A DNA stretch of 31,512 nt. Source: a virus. Under the pieces are notes generated by a model. That model saw nothing but the letters and a program-made list of their open reading frames with translations, was not told where the DNA came from and searched no databases. Positions within the stretch are counted from its first letter, which is position 1; every line of letters starts with the position of its first letter. The stretch is from positions 1-31,512 of the IMG/VR virus record IMGVR_UViG_3300008261_001882. One strand, 5' to 3'. Position numbers and translations under genes: made by a program. This document shows positions 12,701 to 30,346 of the stretch, in pieces.

Positions 12701-14514
12701 CTGTCTCTACGGAATTTTTGGAAAGCCCACGGTGAAGCCGAAGTTCCGGGACGAGGTCTAAATATCACTCGACGGAATTCATCTCCTACTATACTGACGT
12801 TAGGCGGAACTCTTAGAGGATAGTTTTCATAGTACTCGCCGCTTTCTACTAATATCGAAATCTGTATGTTTCTTGCGATGTCACCGTAGGTAATTGATTC
12901 GCCAATTTGAAAGGTACCGTATATGATATCTACATCAAAAATTTCATTGCCACCGCTGTCTAACGCACCTTGATGATCTAATATCTGTGCCAATGCTCCG
13001 CTGGTTTTACCACGAAGGAAAAGACCCTCACGAATGTCTCGTCCCCTAATAGCTTCAGGAGTTGAAGTTGTGACATCCCCGGTAAAATCTGTGCGTAGAC
13101 CATTGGTGAATAACAAGAATCTAGGAAGGTCGACTACGAAGGTAGGCAAGCTGACGAAGCCTGATCCTTTATCTGTGATGGTTACACTGGTTATAACTCC
13201 TGCGGTAACCACAGCAGTACCAAATGCTCCTGTACCGCCACCACCTGTGATTCTCACGGAAACTAAACTGTATCCTGTGCCTCCGTTGGTTATAGAAACT
13301 GATCCTACTTTGTAGGTAAGATTAAATGTGGCACCAGCACCGATTGGTCCAATGCCCACTGGCGCAGCACTGGTGCTGATTGTAGTCGACACGGCAGTTG
13401 CACCAGGCAGTGCAGAATACACACCAGTCGATATGACTCTAAAGGTTACGATTGCTCCGGGAGTAGTTAAAGTAGATAATACTTCAATAAAACAAGCACT
13501 GCCGCCGGCTGCTACAGTACCGCCTGCAACCTGTAATATATCACCGGCATAGTAGTTGGTACCTACACTATTCAACGTCGCGGTGTCCACGCTCATTCGT
13601 ACCGAACCTGCAAATCCTGTGCCTGAAATAGGAGAAGTGTCTACTGATGTCAATGCGCATTCTGATACACCGTTGTTGTATGTCAGAGTTTTTTCATAAG
13701 GTCCGATAATTGGTCTCGAATCATAAACCAATTCTTCTGCACGTTTTAGAGCTGCTTCAAGTGTGCGATAGGCGTAGGCCAATGCTCGACCTTGCAGAGC
13801 AGGTGATACTCCAGGACGATCGTCCTCGCCGCTGAGTGCTACATATAAATTAACACTAGATCCAAATGCTGAACTGTCTACATATTGTTTGGTAGCTGCA
13901 ATCAACCCTCCGTACAATTCATCATCGTCTGGTTCTGGACTTCTTGAAAGAATCAAAGGCCCGCTCATACGTCCAAAACTTACGTCTACGGTGCCTGTTG
14001 CAGGATCAATAGCATCTACGCCTGCTCTAGCAATTTTAGAATCGGCGTAGTTTTTGTTGACTAATTCCGTTGAAAATATAGGAGCCAACGGAGTAATTGT
14101 AGTTCCAGCATCAATAATACGATATTGATTACCGCCAGAACGCAGAGAAAGATCGCCACCTAATTGAGGTGTGGTGTCTGCTACAATTTCAGCAAAGTCT
14201 GCATTGACAGATATTTCGTTGGGGTTAGTAGTGAAATCGATACTGATACCTGATCCGGCAACCAGTTTCTTAAATGCCAATCCCGATTCAGTGTTGTTCA
14301 CAGTGACCACTGGAGTATTTCCAGTAGCCGGATCATTTTGCCCTACATAGGTAGCTGGTGCGTCTTCAAGACCAGTAAATTTTAATCTTTCGCCGAGTCC
14401 TAGCGAGCTATACAGTTCTCTAAAGTTGTCATTGACTTTACGGAATGAATCTCTTATACTGTCGCCGGTACCGTCGTTGCCAACTGCGCCGATATCAATA
14501 GTCTTTCTTGCCAT
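6784..14514 (-). CDS. giant tail-fibre protein (2576 residues)
   Basis: One open frame of 7.7 kb makes this the largest gene here. Residues 1-38 are the docking module (T-I-D-I-G, N-D-G-T-G-D, I-R-D-S-F-R-K-V-N-D-N-F-R-E-L-Y). The body alternates Gly/Thr/Ser-rich beta segments with helical stretches. An example is the region after R-L-N-R-T-F-L-Q-E-E-I, with D-D-M-T-F-D-L-D-R-G-G-Y-N-R and A-L-K-Y-Y, a pattern I associate with long marine-phage fibres. Residues 2445-2576 form a distinct C-terminal domain (S-A-D-L-A-E-Y-Y-E, F-G-G-D-x-E-V-T-V, R-V-A-G-V-V-S, A-L-Q-G-R-V-P). It resembles the autoproteolytic/chaperone domains ending phage tailspikes (Peptidase_G2 type); whether it cleaves is unknown. 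It is probably the long distal fibre. Confidence 0.75.
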   Translation of the reverse strand: MARKTIDIGAVGNDGTGDSIRDSFRKVNDNFRELYSSLGLGERLKFTGLEDAPATYVGQNDPATGNTPVVTVNNTESGLAFKKLVAGSGISIDFTTNPNEISVNADFAEIVADTTPQLGGDLSLRSGGNQYRIIDAGTTITPLAPIFSTELVNKNYADSKIARAGVDAIDPATGTVDVSFGRMSGPLILSRSPEPDDDELYGGLIAATKQYVDSSAFGSSVNLYVALSGEDDRPGVSPALQGRALAYAYRTLEAALKRAEELVYDSRPIIGPYEKTLTYNNGVSECALTSVDTSPISGTGFAGSVRMSVDTATLNSVGTNYYAGDILQVAGGTVAAGGSACFIEVLSTLTTPGAIVTFRVISTGVYSALPGATAVSTTISTSAAPVGIGPIGAGATFNLTYKVGSVSITNGGTGYSLVSVRITGGGGTGAFGTAVVTAGVITSVTITDKGSGFVSLPTFVVDLPRFLLFTNGLRTDFTGDVTTSTPEAIRGRDIREGLFLRGKTSGALAQILDHQGALDSGGNEIFDVDIIYGTFQIGESITYGDIARNIQISILVESGEYYENYPLRVPPNVSIVGDEFRRVIFRPRPGTSASPWAFQKFRRDRTIGNQDTIRQVYNDTTGNWGPQNVIPDQLTLAQAEYGYHYLQDITEPVYPKIQNKGAYESAADLIRLNRTFLQEEIVARIDFNKINSVSPFSPSFTYNRNFYKRSIGQLIDDMTFDLDRGGYNRTISNALKYYQNDLGNTVITTQLSQYLAVIDLFNTLVQDVIDNTAITGLKQTLFFQTIDPAFQSELGSDAVIVLLINAFKDVIDGSGSVNYPLENEEMDVFLANDTVRWQAISAIGHGGFMGVLDPTGQILSRSPYFQECASFSRSQDRQVWAGGMFTDGFAGNLEFNIDAVISTTRLEVSDLDRFPELPASFIVFDTVYRINYVRDFVYDKDGSTATFILDETTPWPFSVFTYNSAACSRDTGLILDGLGRDIVLNTNYWTRQNGITYRLSQSSVVLQDQRAITIEAIEFVHDSVNDLITAYPAIQDTVDLSNIAIADVLARGVAAVPTISFTVPAGASVNVTSAYNLLSANREYAIAEILGYIAAQIAAPTAPFTALDVFIAGEIEFQTQQAVDAVIHDIIYGGNVATRTRALKFYNNLTGAVITDSGLSKAKTAAWHTYLNYLLGQVVQDLNPITSYSGVSRTSGTAATATEATTINTLMTNMSSIIGAADFTAAQAVVAITEPSFVGYSADNIAVRNIIQTNRAELQSAAVQFVDFNGNRYELLMPGNRSMLCNDFTQINDLGYGIVVANGGLTEAVSMFTYYCHIAYYSVTGGQIRAVAGSNAHGNYALVAEGADPLEVPTPSTIYEEFSQRVDCYFPSGAYANVAGGLLIFVTNYEYTPLGGSELEILHSTTNSIYRYPVTSVTTTDLPAGVARLNLSTGTGSATEGLFAVVADGTKMTLRQSNIILLTGGLENVAVRPSTGLKLRETLDTVYRVLEFNSYPDSNGPYEVLFNTATPTIFQVLLTITTIASNVVTTSGNHKLRIGDRIIPTSTANNFVSGTTYYIRTQPTYNTFTVSTSPSGSTFTLADGSSLTIKAAKSHKLLEAYTLNFNVPIAEITGTISGTTLSVSSLLSGTIAAGMVLSGSGITVGTTIVSGSGSTWTISVSHTIAVAIPMTGTGALPAPLAAGQLYYVLPNNLTDTAFSVSTQKNGAATSITTSGVGVQRYNLAGLTLTQTRENYNYIDITVIQPGEFITATPTGTTCTISIANPAVITLASHGFAAGDVIKFTTTGSLPTGISMLNRYFVLSAGLALNSFRISAQLGGDAVETTGTQSGTQKVGKVTGSAGDSVFAVVAISQSEISRTQGSKFVYLGEEYIINSYQPEAVTNQPFGRLILNRPLVNGINNLDSAYTIKAGVPIRSSGSLGTLTIRISLTRVTGHDLLEIGTGSYADTNYPKEIYGSSVNPLNPANEVEERDVGRVFYVTTDQFGNFSVGPYFRVDQGTGQVTFSSSIALSNLDGIGFKRGVPVSEFSTDSGFIDNAIDTVPTENATRIYIERRLGLTHDGAVVGIGQLIPTITGGYMALDGQLGMKSNMNLNNNKIINVTDATDPQDAVNLRSLTLDNFQNWAGSNPQGGQFMIFTGVGNTLINATITGDLTLDLRTGVDSTVNNIDVQLNAGVVNNAEVNAAAAIAQSKLNMVIAATQAAAPTGTAAVIQAANGLSSFNSSDFVVTNGWVTLKANSVQLGDLEQMAPDTLIGNSSISTANAAAVAFTTVVDEGLAIKKSQYSSAGFLRRTGASTASDANYVMVAGSAGSSSSTGNGEVVVRDSSGDFGGRTIDVQNIKIDANLAIDTASTTATDGYIRYYGFDSAGGILIQTSSSVAANRKTAYWNNFHEFKTQNGVSDAPITCSTVTATSIQVQTLTTGGNTTAGTITGRWTLSGTSPNESRLQATYSADLAEYYEGDQEYEVGTVLIFGGDKEVTVTNTQGDNRVAGVVSNTAAFAMYEGCPGLKNLVALQGRVPCKVVGKIRKGEMLVTSRIPGVAVAGGNDIKVGTVVGKALVDYDNDHIGTIEIAVGRT

Positions 14515-14586: not shown

Positions 14587-14874
14587 ATGTTCCTCAAGAT
14601 TAAAACCCAGCAAAATCAATATCATAGACTCAGTAAAAACGGAGTCGAGCATCAATACAAAAGAAAAAAGACTGTAGCAGTATTGAGATGTGATGCCTGT
14701 GATGTGATATTTGAACGCGACCTCAAACACATGGATAAGAAACGGCTCAGCAACAATTTCTTTCATTGTTGTGGGTCCTGCGATGCTAAAAGATTTGCTC
14801 AACGCAAGGGCGTAGAACAGAAGCAGATATGGAATATGCCAGCCAGCGTAGATCTGCCGGTGTCTAAATTCTAA
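14587..14874 (+). CDS. small Cys4 zinc-ribbon protein, function unknown
   Basis: This 95-residue basic protein is one of only two plus-strand genes. C35-x2-C38 and C62-x2-C65 (with an extra C61) form a likely zinc ribbon, separated by a basic helix (R-D-L-K-H-M-D-K-K-R-L). The N-terminal third is also rich in Lys, Arg and His, and the C-terminus has a P-A-S-x-D-L-P-V segment. I recognise close relatives in marine T4-like phages, where it has no assigned function; nucleic-acid or protein binding is an inference. The ATG at 14587 has no good Shine-Dalgarno, and a GTAAATA lies just 4 nt upstream. The 3' end overlaps the convergent iscA gene by 11 bp. A minus-strand frame across the same region has no recognisable protein features and is rejected. 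Confidence 0.75.
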   Translation: MFLKIKTQQNQYHRLSKNGVEHQYKRKKTVAVLRCDACDVIFERDLKHMDKKRLSNNFFHCCGSCDAKRFAQRKGVEQKQIWNMPASVDLPVSKF

Positions 14875-15190
14875 ACGATTCACCGCAGCCGCAGCGGTCA
14901 CGTTCGTTTGGATTGACGAAATCGAATCCTTCATTGAGTCCATTGCGGACCCAATCCATAGTTAACCCATTGAGATATGCTAAACTTTTGGCATCAACTA
15001 AAACCACGAAGTCTTTTTGAGCAAAATTAGTTACGCCATCTTCCGATGTATATTCATCTACATATTCTATGGTATATGCTAGACCGCTGCACCCTGTGGT
15101 TCTGACACCCAATCGAATACCCACGCCTTTACCTCGACGTTCTAAATTTTGCTTGACTTTTTTAGCTGCTGTGTCGGTTACGGTAATCAT
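14864..15190 (-). CDS. iscA: IscA/HesB-family iron-sulfur carrier
   Basis: This 108-residue A-type carrier protein binds iron or an Fe-S cluster and passes it to target apoproteins. All three family cysteines are present: C34 in T-T-G-C-S-G, and C100 and C102 in the C-terminal C-G-C-G-E-S-F motif. The length matches bacterial IscA (about 107). The start codon lies inside the end of iscU (29-nt overlap, different frame), so translation is probably coupled. HesB/IscA-like genes are known in marine phages. Finding one directly after iscU and a superoxide dismutase suggests a dedicated Fe-S maintenance cassette. No cysteine desulfurase is in the window, so sulfur would have to come from the host. 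Confidence 0.92.
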   Translation of the reverse strand: MITVTDTAAKKVKQNLERRGKGVGIRLGVRTTGCSGLAYTIEYVDEYTSEDGVTNFAQKDFVVLVDAKSLAYLNGLTMDWVRNGLNEGFDFVNPNERDRCGCGESFRI

Positions 15191-15548
15191 TTACGGCCGC
15201 TGTGATAGCATCTTCTGCTAGAATTGAACAATGTATCTTAACTGGGGGTAGGGCTAACTCTTGGGCGATGTTGGAGTTTTTGATTGTTCCAGCTTGGTCG
15301 AGGGTTTTGCCTTTAAGCCATTCTGTAACGAGGCTCGAGCTTGCGATAGCCGATCCGCAGCCATACGTTTTAAATTTTGCATCTGTAATAATACCTGTAT
15401 CATCGTCCACCTTTATCTGTAGTTTCATAACATCACCGCAAGCGGGAGCACCAACCATTCCAGTACCAATTGTAGGATCATCTTTTGGAAATGAGCCTAC
15501 GTTGCGTGGATTTTCGTAATGATCAATTACTTTGTCCGAGTACGCCAT
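15162..15548 (-). CDS. iscU: IscU/NifU-N-type Fe-S cluster scaffold protein
   Basis: This 128-residue scaffold protein is where new Fe-S clusters are assembled before transfer. The three ligand cysteines C37, C64 and C107 are present, with the conserved Asp at 39 (A-C-G-D). Also present are the Y-G-C-G-S-A-I-A-S-S motif and the L-P-P-V-K chaperone-recognition motif at 100-104. Length and spacing match bacterial IscU almost exactly, so nothing essential looks lost. A strong GGAGGG six nt upstream of the ATG at 15548 fixes the start, even though the gene begins 26 nt inside the end of the superoxide dismutase gene. iscA overlaps its own 3' end. The L-P-P-V-K motif implies use of the host HscA/DnaK-type chaperone, which is an inference. 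Confidence 0.93.
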   Translation of the reverse strand: MAYSDKVIDHYENPRNVGSFPKDDPTIGTGMVGAPACGDVMKLQIKVDDDTGIITDAKFKTYGCGSAIASSSLVTEWLKGKTLDQAGTIKNSNIAQELALPPVKIHCSILAEDAITAAVNDYRNRHSS

Positions 15549-17638: not shown

Positions 17639-18446
17639 CTACAAACTTATCCTGAACATCCTGCGGATTTGGTTCACCGTGGAACACAGCAATGCTACAG
17701 TCCGCAGGAGGATGAACATCATGTCTTACGGTTTTGAACTGCCTGCCGCCTTGCGCCACAGTGAGTTCGTCTCTGCTACGTATTTCCCATTTGTAACTCA
17801 TAATCCATTCTCTAGGCCAAAACCTCATTCGATCTTTGGCTAATTTCCAAATCCAATCTTGATCTCCCTGCAACTTTTGAGCGTCTGATGGTTTCTGTTT
17901 GAATTGATCGTAGATGTAGCTTTGAGTTCCATGAGTCCATGCCAACACTGAACTATTAAGATAGTTCCAACTGGGGAAAAATTTTCTGTTGAAGTCGTGA
18001 ATGCCTATAAAACTATTATTGTGATAACCTGCAAGTTTGTCTATGTTAGCATGTATAACCACATCGAGATCCATGTACAGTATCCTACCTTTGAGAGGTA
18101 AAGAAGAATCAAACATATGAACCTTGTGCCACCAACCTCTGGCATAGTTGGCATTTGGCTGATATATTTTACGCACTCCTGCGATATCATGTTGATCATC
18201 AGTGAGACAGGCAAATTCATAAGGCACAGTGAGATGTCTTGCAATCATGTTACGCAGACGTTCAACATACTCTCTGTTGTACTTGTTACCGAATCTCACG
18301 CAGAGGACTGTGATTTTTGTGTTAGGATCGTGGTCAGTGGGCAGCGATTCACCGACTACCGCACCCGGCATCGGATAACCATTTGCTTTGTAAAACCGCC
18401 TTTGTTCTTTAGACCAACCGGCTCTATCTTCTTTTGACAATCGCAT
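17622..18446 (-). CDS. glycosyltransferase with DXD motif (GT-A/GT8-like)
   Basis: This 274-residue enzyme is predicted to transfer a sugar from a nucleotide-sugar donor. The region after residue 44 begins a GT-A Rossmann-like strand (I-T-V-L-C-V-R-F), followed by Y-x-C-L-T-D-D. The hallmark metal-binding D-L-D is at 126-128 in [16 protein letters not shown] motif near 194-200 is the usual distal acidic site of GT8-like enzymes, and a C-terminal H-G-x-P-x-P pattern also fits. The N-terminal 40 residues are basic and unassigned. It begins 23 nt inside the end of kdsA, so the two are co-translated. Likely roles are modifying host lipopolysaccharide or glycosylating a virion protein; acceptor and donor are unknown. 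Confidence 0.75.
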
Positions 18447-19251
18447 CTATGGCTACCAGGTCTTTTAAGATATCGCTGAGATCATCTAACTTGATCATGT
18501 TAGGACCATCACTAGGCGCATTGTCCGGATCTTCATGGCATTCCATGAACAGAGTTGATACACACCCTGTGGCTACAGCAGCTCTCGCCAAGTACGGGAC
18601 CATGGTCCTATCGCCGCCAGATCTTTCTCCCATTCCGCCAGGTTGTTGTACAGAATGTGTGGCATCAAAGACCACTGGATACCCGGTGCTTGCCATAATA
18701 GGCAAACTACGCATATCCACAACAAGATTATTGTACCCATGAGTATATCCTCTTTCGCATAGCATGATGCGTTCATTGCCGGTTGAAGCAATCTTTGCCG
18801 CAACGTTTTTCATATCGTGGGGAGCAAGGAACTGTCCCTTCTTGACGTTGATTACACAGCCAGTTTCTCCTGCGGCCACCAACAGATCAGTTTGTCTACA
18901 AAGGAATGCAGGAATTTGTAAAATATCAATGCCTGCCTCTGCACATTCTTTTGCTTGCCATGATTCGTGAATGTCTGTTAAAACAGGCACTCCGAACTGA
19001 TGCTTGATCGAATTAAGAATATGTAAACCTTCTTTGATACCCACACCTCGCTTGGTAGAAATACTACTTCGATTGGCTTTATCAAAACTGCTTTTATAGA
19101 TCAAGGGAATACCAAGTAACGATGTGATAGCAATTAGTCTAGCACAAGTTGCTTCTGCATGATCCTGACTTTCTATTTGACAAGGTCCTGCAATTAAAAC
19201 AAACGGAAGGTTGTTACTGATAGCAAGTGAGTTGATGTTAAATGTACGCAT
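18424..19251 (-). CDS. kdsA: KDO-8-phosphate synthase (2-dehydro-3-deoxyphosphooctonate aldolase), metal-dependent type
   Basis: This 275-residue TIM-barrel enzyme condenses phosphoenolpyruvate with arabinose-5-phosphate to KDO-8-phosphate, the committed step to the inner-core sugar of lipopolysaccharide. Family motifs run end to end: I-A-G-P-C-x-I-E-S (residues 20-28), [49 protein letters not shown] and [11 protein letters not shown]24, the His of D-A-T-H, a Glu in M-E-C-H and the Asp of S-D-G-P-N match the metal ligands of the Aquifex-type class; E. coli KdsA has Asn for the Cys. Length is near normal (about 267-284) and no key residue appears lost. It sits 8 nt after a small membrane protein and overlaps the glycosyltransferase. 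Confidence 0.93.
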
Positions 19252-25247: not shown

Positions 25248-26081
25248 TCAAGTCCACAGGCTTTCGCGAATCTTAATCAGTCGGATCATCATAGCTTCAT
25301 CTTCTGCTTCGTAGGCCTTTTCGATCTTTGTAAGCAGTTTGTGTGCCTTGTCGCTGGCTTTACGATCAGCAGGATCTTTTGAGTTTAGGCTGGAAAACAT
25401 ACTGCCTGGATACTTCACACGCATGGCATCACAGTGAGCACTCCAGCCGCTTGCTTCATATGGATCGGGACGATTGCGATAGGTCACAGTCCACCAGGTA
25501 TAAAGCTCTATAATTTCCTTAGCGGCTTTGGCCTGATAAGTTGGCTCTGCTTTATGCTTCTCGCCTTCTTCCAAAAATTCTTCGTTGGTTAATGTTTCAG
25601 CCCAACGTAGGTATTCCATGCCAGCTTCTGGACAACGCCATGTTCTCAAACGTAGCCATCCTTTGCGATACCAGGGAACATTGAACTTGGTCTTAGCATC
25701 ATCACTCCAAATACAGTGATGCCATGCTTGTTCTATTTCAACAAAATCCACAAGCTCGTTGAAAAGACAAGGAAGAAAGCGATTGCCCACATCACGCCAA
25801 GTGCCCGGCGCAATATCTCGGGGATGGGCAGTAAGGGCATGGCTGCGAGTAATCCAGCGATTATTAATATAATAGCGAATGTCATTTAGTCGATCTGGTA
25901 TGTAATAGACAAATTTTTGAAGGTGATCCAACCCTTCTTCAGCGATCCAATAGCGGATAGGGTGAGATTTGGCTGAACTGGCATACCAGGCATCCCATTC
26001 TTCGCTGGTGCCGCACTTGAGCTTTGGCGTACCACGAAGCCAATCTGCAAATTTCGAACATGTCCAATAATGACTACGCAT
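25248..26081 (-). CDS. Trp-rich phage protein of unknown function (277 residues)
   Basis: The protein has many Trp residues and several His/Trp pairs (H-Y-W-T-C near the start, R-Y-W-I-A-E-E-G, N-N-R-W-I-T-R-S-H, A-W-H-H-C-I-W, W-T-V-T-Y). The last 60 residues are a charged helix. The W-R-D-V-G-N-R and Y-I-N-N-R-W segments look conserved in character, but I cannot assign a fold. GAGGAA lies five nt before the ATG at 26081. It is the first gene after the perfect sigma70 promoter at 26118-26146, so it should be among the earliest and most abundant transcripts. That suggests a host-takeover role, by inference only. Confidence 0.68.
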   Translation of the reverse strand: MRSHYWTCSKFADWLRGTPKLKCGTSEEWDAWYASSAKSHPIRYWIAEEGLDHLQKFVYYIPDRLNDIRYYINNRWITRSHALTAHPRDIAPGTWRDVGNRFLPCLFNELVDFVEIEQAWHHCIWSDDAKTKFNVPWYRKGWLRLRTWRCPEAGMEYLRWAETLTNEEFLEEGEKHKAEPTYQAKAAKEIIELYTWWTVTYRNRPDPYEASGWSAHCDAMRVKYPGSMFSSLNSKDPADRKASDKAHKLLTKIEKAYEAEDEAMMIRLIKIRESLWT

Positions 26082-26117: not shown

Positions 26118-26146
26118 ATTATACAATCTTTTAGAAAACCTGTCAA
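26118..26146 (-). promoter_or_regulatory. perfect sigma70 promoter, TTGACA-N17-TATAAT
   Basis: The -35 (26141-26146) and -10 (26118-26123) are exact with a 17-nt spacer. Transcription would start near 26111, giving a 30-nt leader. A second TATAAT lies near 26094-26099 without a -35. It drives the five-gene block 25248 down to 23949. The host for these promoters must use a standard sigma70-type factor. Confidence 0.93.
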
Positions 26147-26163: not shown

Positions 26164-26547
26164 TCAAATTTTTCTCTGATAGCCTGCTAAATTAAGCATG
26201 ATTGAATATTGTTCATAGGCCTTTTGCACAGCAGCGTTGGTATGCCTAATGTTTGCTTCTTCACGTTCCTTGTTCATTAAGGTTTCGAACATGTCAATTT
26301 CTCCTTGACTATGTCGTTGCCATTTGAAGAAACGACGTTCCATTTCTATCAGTGTTCGCAGTCGACCTTCTGGAATTTCTAAGGTAATGACCTGCTCAGT
26401 TTCAAACTCCACAATGTCATTGCGAATAATATCAGCTCGGGATGGTTCTGTAAAGAAACGTGGAGGGTGATAACGTGCTCTACGTTTTTGGTCGTTGAGC
26501 ACATTCACTTCATAGTTGCGACAGAAGTCTTTTAATTCGTCAGTCAT
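26164..26547 (-). CDS. conserved phage protein of unknown function (127 residues)
   Basis: This charged protein contains N-Y-E-V-N-V-L-N-D-Q-K-R-R-A-R-Y, P-P-R-F-F-T-E-P and F-E-T-E-Q-V-I-T-L-E-I-P. It ends in a long amphipathic region F-F-K-W-Q-R-H-S-Q-G-E-x-D-M-F-E. I recognise near relatives in T4-like marine phages, always unassigned. It lies six nt after the halogenase stop and is the last gene of the 31.5-26.2 kb run. It ends before the early promoter at 26118. The high charge and predicted helices suit a protein-protein adaptor, but nothing proves that. Confidence 0.7.
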   Translation of the reverse strand: MTDELKDFCRNYEVNVLNDQKRRARYHPPRFFTEPSRADIIRNDIVEFETEQVITLEIPEGRLRTLIEMERRFFKWQRHSQGEIDMFETLMNKEREEANIRHTNAAVQKAYEQYSIMLNLAGYQRKI

Positions 26548-26553
26548 AGGATG

Positions 26554-28059
26554 TTAGGTGTTGGTGTCTGTTGGTGCTACAAAATTGTTAAAATAATCTA
26601 AAATTTCTTTATGGGAAACAAACTCATTTGTCTGAACGTGTTCGGGGGACGTTAATATGTATGGAACATAGTAATCTTTCATGATATCATAATACTTAGA
26701 CAAATCTACAAGTCTCAGACCATGTAATACCTGCATCCAGCTTCTATCAGTGAACATACTGAAATCAATTTCGGGAGATTTTCCCTGATGTAGTTGTTCT
26801 AGAATTACTGCTAATCTTTCTGGAGGTGGGTAATTCTTTTGAAAGTCTCTCCAAAATTCAGTATCCTGTCGCTTGGTCATGTAGTGTAGATAAACAAATT
26901 CTAGTATGTTAGTGTTGCGATCGAGGCATCGCTTGTTAAGGTCTTCTTCGAACTTGAGGTCAGTGGTATTGAATCCATCACAATTTAAAAAATCAATAAC
27001 ATTCAACGCACTGACCCAAATGTTTGTGGCTTCCAACGGTTCTAAGAATCCTGCACTTAGTCCAACCGCCATGGAATTTCCCACCTTGGTCTTTTCATAT
27101 GTGCCTGCTTCGAACTTAAAAATTTTAGGCACAGTAAGTTGTTGACCAAAAAATTCCTGTGCTTCTTCGAGAGCTTCTTGATCTGAACAGAATTTTGAAT
27201 TATACACGTACCCGCATCCGTATCTACCGTTTACAGGAATTCTCCATATCCAACCATTCTTCATACAGAATGCATCAGTCACTGGTGAAATGTTATTGTC
27301 GTGCTCGATGAAAAACGGCATCGCTCTGTCAAGACCACAGCTGTCTGCATAACTGTTCCATTTGACTTTGTGATGTTTTCCAATTACTAATCGAGCAAAT
27401 CCTGAACAGTCAAATACAAAGTCGCAGGCTAATTCACTGTCATCATCTAAAATTATATGGGTAATAATGTTATCACCTCGGAATTCTTTAACTCGTGCAT
27501 CTATATGATGTATGCCCTTGTTAGCTGCAAACTTTGATAGATACGTTGCTAATAGCCTTGCATCAAAATGCAAAGAAAACTGTCCGTGATGATTTAAAGG
27601 AAACGCATCAAGGGATGAATCTTTGTCTGTCCAGGTAAATGGTACACGATTTTCCTTTGACATTTTTTCATACACTGATAAATCTTGTGAATCGCTGTCA
27701 GCGATAGACGCTTGCAATGACAGCAACTTGTCAATCAAGTTTTGATGTACAGGAATTGGATTATGAACTTCGTCTTTGTATATAAAACTATGGAAATAAC
27801 TTTGTCCGTCGTTGTTCCAGTTGGCAAAATTAATTCCTAATTTGAATGTGGCCTTGCATTCTCTAATTAAATCTGTGATTGGAATGTCCAACATGTCGAG
27901 AATATTTGTTAAGAATGGCACGGAGCCTTCGCCAGCACCTAAAATACCAATTTCGCCACTTTCTATAAGTGTTACGTCATAGTGTGGATAGAATTTTTTA
28001 GCAAATAACGCAGTAAACCAGCCAGCGGTTCCACCACCGATTATATAAACTTTTTTCAT
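26554..28059 (-). CDS. flavin-dependent tryptophan-halogenase-family protein
   Basis: This 501-residue FAD protein belongs to the tryptophan halogenase (PrnA/RebH-like) family. These enzymes use FADH2, oxygen and halide to make hypohalous acid and halogenate an aromatic substrate. The FAD loop G-G-G-T-A-G-W is at 8-14, with an acidic end to the second strand (L-I-E-S). G-x-G-E-G-S-V-P follows at 41-48. K73 in T-F-K-L-G-I-N-F-A-N-W matches the catalytic Lys. The family motif W-I-W-R-I-P is at 270-275. G-F-L-E-P-L-E-A-T-N-I is at 337-347, where E343 probably matches the catalytic Glu. Length is normal (about 500-540). Halide and substrate are unknown, and a flavin reductase would have to come from the host. 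The start ATG at 28059 lacks a Shine-Dalgarno. Confidence 0.88.
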   Translation of the reverse strand: MKKVYIIGGGTAGWFTALFAKKFYPHYDVTLIESGEIGILGAGEGSVPFLTNILDMLDIPITDLIRECKATFKLGINFANWNNDGQSYFHSFIYKDEVHNPIPVHQNLIDKLLSLQASIADSDSQDLSVYEKMSKENRVPFTWTDKDSSLDAFPLNHHGQFSLHFDARLLATYLSKFAANKGIHHIDARVKEFRGDNIITHIILDDDSELACDFVFDCSGFARLVIGKHHKVKWNSYADSCGLDRAMPFFIEHDNNISPVTDAFCMKNGWIWRIPVNGRYGCGYVYNSKFCSDQEALEEAQEFFGQQLTVPKIFKFEAGTYEKTKVGNSMAVGLSAGFLEPLEATNIWVSALNVIDFLNCDGFNTTDLKFEEDLNKRCLDRNTNILEFVYLHYMTKRQDTEFWRDFQKNYPPPERLAVILEQLHQGKSPEIDFSMFTDRSWMQVLHGLRLVDLSKYYDIMKDYYVPYILTSPEHVQTNEFVSHKEILDYFNNFVAPTDTNT

Positions 28060-28064
28060 GCAAT

Positions 28065-28072
28065 TATTTATA
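28065..28072 (-). promoter_or_regulatory. TATAAATA element ahead of the halogenase gene
   Basis: This is an exact match to the T4 late consensus, but it overlaps the TAA stop of the radical SAM gene and ends only five nt before the halogenase ATG. A real promoter here would give a leaderless message. Chance from the stop codon plus AT-rich spacer is a good alternative. Confidence 0.3.
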
Positions 28073-29150
28073 TGCTGTATTTTTGCATAATTTTTTTATA
28101 AACCTCAGGCTGTGCAGCTTTGGGAGCGCACAGTCCGCACCAGCAACTGGATTTATCACAGATAATATCTGGCAACGTGTTAGTTTCCAATTTTTGTTTG
28201 AGATCTTTTAATAATGCTTCACTGTTTTTGAGATACCCTAACACTCCGACTTTGCTGTCTAGGTTCATTCTACAGTCTTTATTAGTGAAAATTTCTCCAG
28301 TTGTTTGCCTTATGTACAGAAAGAATCGATTAACTGAACAGGTCCAACCTTTGAATCTATTGTTTTTAATATAGGTAGTACCGCTGTCAACATCAGTACA
28401 CAGTGTTTCGCCGCCACAACAGGCCCGACCCTTGGATGACAAATCAATACCGTTTTTAAAAAAAGATATTACCTTAGTGGTCATTGATACCTGTTTGGTT
28501 CCGGTTAGGAATTCAGATTGTTCGGGAGTGTAATTGAATTTAAAATTGGTCCACCCGTGATCTAGTTGGCGTGTGATATATTTCACATCGTTATTTTTAC
28601 ACCACTCAATTTGATCTAAACATACTTGCCATTTTTTAGGGTGCATGAGTACAGACACTTGGAAATTTTTATTGCTGTCTTTTAAATATTTCACATTTTG
28701 CCTAAACATATCCTGCTGCTTTACAAGGCTCTCGGAATGAAAACTCATGGTAAAGTAATCGACTAGGTCTGCAATTTTTTTCCAACGCTCTGGACTGGTT
28801 ATGCCATTAGTAATTAAACCAATGTTAAGATTCCAATTATGATACAACGACTTTTTACTTTTTATATATTCAAGTATTTCTAAAATATGAGGATGGAAAA
28901 TACTTTCTCCACCTTGTATATTCAATGTAGCGAATCTAATATGATCCGGACGTGAACACATGTATAAATTCAAGTACTCCACAATAAAATCAACGGTGCT
29001 GAGACTGTCTTCCAAGCTAGGATGATCTTGGCTGTTGTCATGACCGTCACCGCAGTAACTACAATCCAGATTGCATTTTAATGTAGATTCCCATGCTACC
29101 TGGAAAGAGTTATGAGAATTAGTTTGATCTATGTAGTTGAAGTCGGGCAC
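28068..29150 (-). CDS. radical SAM protein with Cys-rich C-terminus (SPASM-like)
   Basis: This 360-residue enzyme is expected to use a 4Fe-4S cluster and S-adenosylmethionine to start radical chemistry. The cluster motif C26-x3-C30-x2-C33 is followed by the Q-G-G-E motif at 79-82 and I-T-N-G near 113. A second Cys set (C244, C245, C251, C271, C293, C331, C336, C338, C341) could bind one or two more clusters, as in SPASM/twitch proteins that modify peptides. The start is a GTG at 29150, 17 nt after thyX; no ATG lies before the cluster motif. The halogenase follows after 8 nt, which suggests a shared pathway or substrate. It is longer than QueE and lacks QueE's layout. Confidence 0.85.
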   Translation of the reverse strand: MPDFNYIDQTNSHNSFQVAWESTLKCNLDCSYCGDGHDNSQDHPSLEDSLSTVDFIVEYLNLYMCSRPDHIRFATLNIQGGESIFHPHILEILEYIKSKKSLYHNWNLNIGLITNGITSPERWKKIADLVDYFTMSFHSESLVKQQDMFRQNVKYLKDSNKNFQVSVLMHPKKWQVCLDQIEWCKNNDVKYITRQLDHGWTNFKFNYTPEQSEFLTGTKQVSMTTKVISFFKNGIDLSSKGRACCGGETLCTDVDSGTTYIKNNRFKGWTCSVNRFFLYIRQTTGEIFTNKDCRMNLDSKVGVLGYLKNSEALLKDLKQKLETNTLPDIICDKSSCWCGLCAPKAAQPEVYKKIMQKYSI

Positions 29151-29167: not shown

Positions 29168-29851
29168 TCAGTGATTAACTGTTAAATTATCAGCCATAGG
29201 AAAGATTGTGGCGATGGCCTTGGCACAGGCAACAGCTACCAGCTGATGTTCTTTCTGTGTGCCATTTGCCGAACGCAGTTCAATGAAGTGTATCCATGAA
29301 CGCAGTGTGCCATTCATATACAAGCGGCTCACTGTGTTGCCTTCTGGTAATACTACACGAGCTTGTTCTTTGGCTATGCCTTTAGACACAGCCCATTCGT
29401 ATGTTGACTTTGCAAGTTCAATGAGCTCTCGTTGTCTACGAGACCATTCTTCTTGTAACATTGTATCACCAATTGTTGGTTCCAACTCGACTGAGTTTTG
29501 TCTGTTCTTTGGATCTTGCTTTCGTGCTTCTCTAACCACAAACGAGAGATCTTTAGTAGGGTCAGCATATCGCTGGCTGAACTCTTGGAAGGCAAAGCTT
29601 CTGTGACGCAGGATCTGTCTGGCGATATCTCTAGTTGTGGTGATTTCAACGCAGGCTGAAACCATTTCCAAGGGACTCCAGTGTGCGTGTTTAACAAGAT
29701 ATCGTATAAGCTTCTCTGATGTCTCTGTATTGAGCTGGTTGCTTGGGTTGCTGACACGGGCGCAATACGCAATGAGTTCCTGCGCATCGTCGATGCCAAG
29801 GTCTGCAAATTCTGCGGTGGGCTGACTATAGGATAAGAGTTTAACATTCAT
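29168..29851 (-). CDS. thyX: flavin-dependent thymidylate synthase
   Basis: This 227-residue enzyme methylates dUMP to dTMP using FAD, NADPH and methylene-tetrahydrofolate, supplying thymidine nucleotides for phage DNA. The ThyX signature R-H-R-S-F-A-F-Q-E-F-S-Q-R-Y is at 82-95, with S92 matching the nucleotide-binding Ser. A-R-x-V-L-P-E-G and the closing R-S-W-x-H-F-I-E-L-R motif are present, so it should be active. Length is normal. Start and stop abut the upstream gene (TAA then ATG). ThyX is common in marine T4-like phages. Unlike ThyA it produces tetrahydrofolate without dihydrofolate, so no viral folate reductase is needed. Confidence 0.95.
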   Translation of the reverse strand: MNVKLLSYSQPTAEFADLGIDDAQELIAYCARVSNPSNQLNTETSEKLIRYLVKHAHWSPLEMVSACVEITTTRDIARQILRHRSFAFQEFSQRYADPTKDLSFVVREARKQDPKNRQNSVELEPTIGDTMLQEEWSRRQRELIELAKSTYEWAVSKGIAKEQARVVLPEGNTVSRLYMNGTLRSWIHFIELRSANGTQKEHQLVAVACAKAIATIFPMADNLTVNH

Positions 29852-30346
29852 TTAGGTTTCTTTCAAAATTTTCATTAGTTTTTCTTTTTCAAGAAGGTCT
29901 CGTTCCAGTTCTACATACTGCTCACGTAATTCCTGAAGTTGTTTCCAGCGTGACTCTAATTCCGGATTGGGTGTAAGGATAGCCAGTCGCTGTTCAATCT
30001 TGTCTATAGCTTCGCTGAGACTCTTACCTCCGATTTTGATATCAGCACCCTTCTTCATAGTTAACCCATCGGCATCTATATGCACAGTAGTAGGATTACT
30101 ATTGATCGTATACCCCGCAGTACCGTTGGTGGTGTAGACATAAGGAGTAGTAATACTACCCGAGGTAATACCAACATTCGAAGTAAACGTACTAGGATCG
30201 AGGGTGATAGTGTCTGTGCCCATACTGGTTCCTATGTTATAGGAAGACCAATTTGGCACAGCACCATACCCACCAATGGTGCCAGCCGCACCACTGCCAA
30301 CGAAGACAGTGTCCTGATTATGCTGACTTTGCTTCTTTGCGGGCAT
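29852..30346 (-). CDS. phage protein with C-terminal coiled coil, unknown role
   Basis: The protein has 164 residues. The N-terminal 90 are Gly/Ser/Thr-rich and contain collar- or fibre-like segments. A G-A-D-I-K-I-G-G-K-S-L strand follows, and from about residue 105 a long coiled coil (A-I-D-K-I-E-Q-R-L-A-I-L, then W-K-Q-L-Q-E-L-R-E-Q-Y-V-E-L-E). The D-I-K-I-G-G-K-S-L … R-L-A-I-L-x-P-N-P motif is widespread in marine T4-like phages, where it is annotated only as hypothetical. A virion or assembly role is likely but unproved. The start lies 29 nt inside the Hc1-like gene, and the end abuts thyX. Confidence 0.72.
   Translation of the reverse strand: MPAKKQSQHNQDTVFVGSGAAGTIGGYGAVPNWSSYNIGTSMGTDTITLDPSTFTSNVGITSGSITTPYVYTTNGTAGYTINSNPTTVHIDADGLTMKKGADIKIGGKSLSEAIDKIEQRLAILTPNPELESRWKQLQELREQYVELERDLLEKEKLMKILKET

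Follow-up and report, generated by a model that had tools for sequence, protein, structure and literature searches.

A flavin-dependent halogenase and a radical SAM enzyme encoded side by side in one freshwater phage lineage, with comparisons to a multi-rSAM cassette and a separate Cys-rich protein operon

The characterised example of a phage flavin-dependent halogenase is VirX1 of cyanophage Syn10 (PDB 6QGM; PMC8407142). The halogenase described here is like VirX1 in its Pfam family, fold, phage origin and catalytic Lys, WxWxIP and Glu residues, but the two homologues are only about 28% identical (tblastn), their gene neighbourhoods differ and the Syn10 genome has no radical SAM (rSAM) match. 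The best match from a cultured phage, the halogenase of Pelagibacter phage HTVC008M (37.7% identity), sits next to genes for a 2OG-Fe(II) oxygenase and a terminase; the one rSAM gene of that genome lies elsewhere, away from the halogenase. Outside phages, a proteusin RiPP brominase is known, a flavin halogenase whose substrate is a ribosomal peptide (PMC10858898). Unlike that system, the stretch of DNA analysed here (the window) has no visible precursor peptide.

Phages with many rSAM genes are already known as a kind, since Campylobacter phages CP220 and CPt10 were reported to encode 11 and 12 rSAM proteins (PMC2853527). Campylobacter phage CP21 has 11 rSAM matches and a halogenase, but its halogenase is about 25% identical to ours over 42% of the query and is not adjacent to an rSAM gene. 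The rSAM enzyme of the window has no tblastn match among 50,697 cultured phage records and is therefore not close to the Campylobacter phage enzymes. The best structural neighbours of its model are the SPASM/twitch enzymes MoaA, BlsE, CteB, anSME and SuiB, with which it has C-terminal auxiliary Fe-S cysteines in common, but the similarity is low (TM only about 0.5, 12-16% identity) and the cysteines are spaced differently.

The window (IMG/VR record IMGVR_UViG_3300008261_001882, positions 1 to 31,512, 31,512 nt) is a 31.5-kb fragment of a viral contig from a freshwater lake phage; its viral record and its baseplate and tail-fibre genes bear out the phage origin assumed in the original prediction. 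The block containing the two genes comprises the following features.

25248..26081, minus strand: p277, a 277-aa conserved protein of unassigned function, downstream anchor
26118..26146, minus strand: sigma-70-like promoter TTGACA-17-TATAAT (consensus match 12/12), downstream of gp127 and before the 277-aa gene
26164..26547, minus strand: gp127, a 127-aa protein of unassigned function, 6 nt downstream of the halogenase gene; syntenic anchor kept in all close relatives
26554..28059, minus strand: flavin-dependent halogenase (PF04820, phrog_2928), 501 aa, ATG start
28068..29150, minus strand: rSAM enzyme with eight to nine conserved C-terminal cysteines, 360 aa, GTG start
29168..29851, minus strand: ThyX thymidylate synthase (PF02511, 2.2e-44), 17 nt upstream of the rSAM gene; syntenic anchor
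29852..30346, minus strand: 164-aa protein with a repeat-like N-terminus and a coiled-coil-like C-terminus, upstream syntenic anchor

Both open reading frames were found where they had been placed, co-directional and 8 nt apart. The ThyX anchor is also present in contigs G001, G002, G006 and G009. The consensus promoter between gp127 and p277, which has a TTGACA-N17-TATAAT counterpart before the p277 gene at the corresponding place in G002, suggests that ThyX-rSAM-halogenase-gp127 and the 277-aa gene are separate transcription units, as predicted from the promoter sequence. An Rfam search gave no match. In G002 a KdsB cytidylyltransferase-like gene, recognised by eye, lies between gp127 and p277 (L004, about 12978-13660), and the window has a DAHP-synthase-family (KdsA-like) gene at 18424-19251; judged from these sequences, phage-encoded Kdo supply is possible.

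The halogenase assignment is strong (PF04820, E=1.8e-99; phrog_2928, E=1.7e-99). All the elements that the original prediction had read in this protein, namely the FAD loop, Lys73, W-I-W-R-I-P and a probable Glu343, are present. G8, G10 and G13 of the GxGxxG motif were conserved in all 45 phage homologues, as were K73, W270, W272, P275 and E343 (45/45), with I274 completing WxWxIP. K73 and E343 also align with the corresponding residues of halogenases in the PDB. The AlphaFold2 model (pLDDT 87) resembles PyrH, Xcc4156, BrvH and other tryptophan halogenases (TM about 0.8), and this predicted fold, together with the invariant catalytic residues, argues against a blocked active site. The YPYYHG...YSW-type C-terminal substrate segment of PyrH, Th-Hal and 6NSD is not clearly recognisable in the phage profile; R439-S440-W441 stands at the aligned place, and this sequence difference suggests a pocket more open than in free-tryptophan halogenases. 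A QhpG/LodB-type flavoprotein was rejected because it gave weak matches only and the Lys/WxWxIP/Glu set of a halogenase is intact.

The rSAM enzyme matches PF04055 (E=1.6e-9) and carries CX3CX2C at C26, C30 and C33; these cysteines and the GGE motif (G80-G81-E82) are invariant in 60 sequences. The second set of nine cysteines noted earlier is real: C244, C245, C271, C293, C331, C336, C338 and C341 each occur in 59-60 of the 60 homologues, and C251 in 42. No SPASM model in Pfam or NCBIfam matches the protein and the conserved spacing is non-canonical, so the likeness to SPASM enzymes is an analogy. The AlphaFold2 model is confident (pLDDT 91.4), and a search of solved structures with the sequence returned none at E<=1. 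Matches to NCBIfam models of known peptide maturases were all far below their cut-offs; viperin (NF038283, 40 bits where the cut-off is 180) and QueE (TIGR03963, 32 bits where it is 260) were rejected as generic rSAM similarity.

We compared gene order around both enzymes, always among contigs that are fragments, so that the absence of a gene from any one of them is weak evidence. The adjacent halogenase-rSAM pair occurs in only four IMG/VR contigs of one lineage, namely the window with its near-identical 59.6-kb contig G001, and L003, G002 and G003, which are 93-95% relatives. They share the order ThyX-rSAM-halogenase, followed by gp127 where the contig extends; L003 ends within the start of the halogenase. 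The halogenase of G005-G007 is 79% identical and has no adjoining rSAM gene, the order in G005 and G006 being ThyX-gp127-118-aa membrane protein-halogenase, with the membrane protein also present in G007. A search with the rSAM family returned at least 527 relatives in IMG/VR, and among the best 80 loci a halogenase lies near the rSAM gene in one (1/80), L002, which is the window phage itself; the closest relatives, at 51-74% identity, have no adjacent halogenase. In the reverse scan, which used cassette-family profiles and a motif check and may let very distant rSAMs escape, an rSAM was detectable in 10 of 84 halogenase loci: seven belong to a Cys-rich operon type described below, one has a QueE-like protein and the others are L010 (the G005 cassette) and CP21. 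The outcome that the original prediction had named as refuting it, a lack of conserved pairing elsewhere, thus largely holds for this pair, whose absence outside the lineage in both search directions shows that the pairing is lineage-specific.

Within the lineage, the window and G002 have nevertheless kept the pairing over a dS of about 1. At 93-94% identity and a dS of about 0.9-1.0, dN/dS is 0.036 for the halogenase and 0.031 for the rSAM enzyme, compared with 0.108 for the neighbouring ThyX. Both genes are therefore strongly constrained by purifying selection (dN/dS about 0.03), and neither is decaying.

In about 31 of the 84 halogenase loci (e.g. L010:9644-10000) the gene next to the halogenase encodes a small membrane protein (94-118 aa), which is absent from the window lineage. 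A DUF6065-like protein was considered as the usual halogenase partner and set aside as weak, since it lies within two genes in 8/84 halogenase loci.

Because the halogenase pairing is lineage-specific, attention shifts to the setting in which relatives of the rSAM enzyme are normally found. Outside the lineage, the relatives at 51-74% identity usually lie inside a multi-rSAM cassette of paralogous rSAMs, N-twitch rSAMs (NF033640), a QueC-like PP-loop protein and a methyltransferase-like protein, the last labelled by eye and matching nothing in Pfam or NCBIfam. In G001, about 3 kb separate the window rSAM gene from the same cassette, which is on the opposite strand and includes a 30%-identical paralogue. 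Two Fe-S genes of the window complete the relevant features.

L002:231-7042 = G001:15083-21894: multi-rSAM cassette, also in L031-L067, in environmental phages
15162..15548, minus strand of the window: NifU/IscU-like Fe-S scaffold protein (PF01592, 1.7e-53)
14864..15190, minus strand of the window: A-type (IscA/HesB-like) Fe-S carrier (PF01521, 2.2e-17), overlapping the NifU-like gene

PF04055 matches number 10 in G001 (59.6 kb), 11 in G002 (39.9 kb) and 8 in G006, compared with one in the window fragment. The 14 long contigs (79-337 kb) carrying this rSAM family have 2-15 matches each, with the maximum in G013. Only two of these 14 also encode a halogenase, in both cases divergent (27% and 24% identical to that of the window) and not adjoining an rSAM gene. 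Full-length cellular relatives, at 25-30% identity, come chiefly from Bdellovibrionia MAGs and again lie in multi-rSAM clusters; on the contigs L269 and L271-L274, from Bdellovibrionia and related MAGs, these clusters akin to the phage cassette look chromosomal. No cultured phage gave a tblastn match to the window rSAM or to two proteins of the cassette, and the family would accordingly be missed in studies of isolates. In the open-access papers searched, we found no description of the halogenase-rSAM pair, the rSAM family, the cassette or the Cys-rich system. By its sequence relationships, the window rSAM appears to be a displaced member of a phage gene set that is large and undescribed and includes ten or more rSAMs per genome. 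The NifU/IscU-like and IscA-like proteins may supply clusters to these enzymes, and ten or more radical-chemistry genes with Fe-S assembly proteins of the phage's own would be an unusual investment for a phage.

Taken together, we consider it probable that the halogenase and the rSAM protein are separate, functional accessory enzymes that adjoin by chance of lineage. The two genes would have come together in one freshwater T4-like phage lineage, within a variable region flanked by the conserved ThyX and 277-aa genes. The halogenase is a member of the widespread phage family phrog_2928 and, if it works as its family does, would use reduced FAD, O2 and halide to form HOX, which would be relayed to K73, after which an aromatic ring activated by E343 would be halogenated. 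The rSAM enzyme would be a stray from a family normally found in the multi-rSAM cassette; its C26/C30/C33 cluster presumably cleaves SAM to give a 5'-deoxyadenosyl radical, the eight conserved C-terminal cysteines may hold one or two further Fe-S clusters, and the phage NifU- and IscA-like proteins may provide its clusters.

A somewhat unlikely reading, compatible with the one above, is that the target of the rSAM cassette is not a peptide but a surface carbohydrate or sugar nucleotide, which the cassette would make or modify, the halogenase being optional. BlsE and MoaA have nucleoside substrates. Their presence among the fold neighbours of the rSAM enzyme is consistent with such a target, as are the KdsA-like DAHP-synthase-family and glycosyltransferase/sialyltransferase-like proteins of the window and, in the Bdellovibrionia MAGs, the nucleotide-sugar dehydrogenase-like and glycosyltransferase-like genes seen by eye near the cassette relatives. 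However, TM-scores to every known rSAM structure are only about 0.5, and sugar genes are common phage cargo that is perhaps unrelated.

The two enzymes might instead be a dedicated tailoring pair with one substrate (a peptide, virion protein or metabolite), which the rSAM enzyme would rearrange or cross-link while the halogenase added halogen to an aromatic side chain. The 8-nt spacing, the shared direction and the operon-like block would fit such a pair, as would adjacency kept over a dS of about 1 with both dN/dS values low and the resemblance of the eight to nine C-terminal cysteines to those of peptide-modifying SPASM enzymes. Precedents also exist, in the form of the flavin brominase acting on RiPP precursors (PMC10858898) and of a separate phage clade that does have operons of halogenase, SPASM rSAM and Cys-rich protein. 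However, the pair is confined to one lineage, the rSAM enzyme is far from known peptide maturases and the halogenase belongs to a different clade from that of the operons. Moreover, a search for Cys-rich ORFs resembling a RiPP-type precursor found none in the window, G001, G002 or G006. A dedicated two-enzyme system is thus not supported by the sequence comparisons, and we regard it as unlikely. It also seems quite unlikely that the halogenase, the displaced rSAM and the nearby cassette form one tailoring pathway yielding a halogenated, heavily modified virion protein, peptide or sugar during infection, although in G006, too, no more than a few kb separate the halogenase from the cassette. A DNA or nucleoside hypermodification pathway, to which the QueC-like PP-loop gene of the cassette, a QueD-like gene in the window and the many rSAMs might point, is very improbable given that the window rSAM is only weakly QueE-like, that no 7-deazaguanine-type DNA-insertion enzyme was noticed incidentally and that halogenases have no known role in such a pathway. 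The carbohydrate and nucleoside readings concern the target and so overlap with the judgements on separate enzymes and a joint pathway.

In contrast to the window pair, seven halogenase loci share a core of a small Cys-rich protein, an rSAM (about 480 aa), a further protein (about 215 aa) and a halogenase, with 2OG-oxygenase-like proteins beside it; in one of the seven, L131, the ORF caller did not recover the Cys-rich ORF.

L125:5116-9238: example of the Cys-rich/SPASM-rSAM/halogenase system, which is represented in L113, L125, L157, L170, L176, L180 and L188-L265

The operon rSAM scores above the cut-off for the SPASM model TIGR04085 and is closest to PapB-type ranthipeptide maturases, for which it falls below the cut-off. 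In the 85 loci with an rSAM of this type, a Cys-rich ORF lies nearby in 73 and a halogenase in 37. In the halogenase tree the operon-type enzymes form one clade (support 98), apart from that of the window. The Cys-rich proteins start like phage tail-fibre proteins (MTLPxSGxIS, by eye), and in some of them a further domain follows, such as a Peptidase_S74 chaperone domain in L204 and a Hint domain in Achromobacter phage JWF.

Among non-redundant loci with sufficient flanking sequence, a Trp immediately following the Cys-rich core and the presence of the halogenase go together (23:0 versus 0:22; Fisher 2.4e-13), a P value that overstates independence, since the operon-rSAM tree has only two changes of halogenase state, and that depends on a definition of terminal Trp set after sequence inspection. 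With the definition used first, which was broader and accepted a Trp anywhere in the core, the counts are 23:15 versus 0:7 (p=0.004). Judging from these sequence patterns, the original idea looks right for the operon-type clade, in which the halogenase accompanies a peptide-maturase-like SPASM rSAM and a tail-fibre-like Cys-rich protein, and the operon is a candidate for phage-encoded RiPP-like modification of that protein. The original idea of a phage halogenase working with a SPASM rSAM enzyme thus finds backing at the sequence level in other phages, with a virion-type protein as target, but not in the pair for which it was proposed.

One member of the Cys-rich group is in culture. In gp028 of Achromobacter phage JWF (L266:4799-6250), a tail-fibre-like protein, the Cys-rich stretch is followed by the Hint domain, and one gene away lies an rSAM gene that shares about 44% identity with the operon type. 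Phage JWF is thus a possible laboratory entry point to the Cys-rich/rSAM system. In two of the operon loci, HldD/HldE-like ADP-heptose synthesis genes, assigned by eye, lie upstream of the halogenase operon (L157:4297-6189 and L176:4315-6207).
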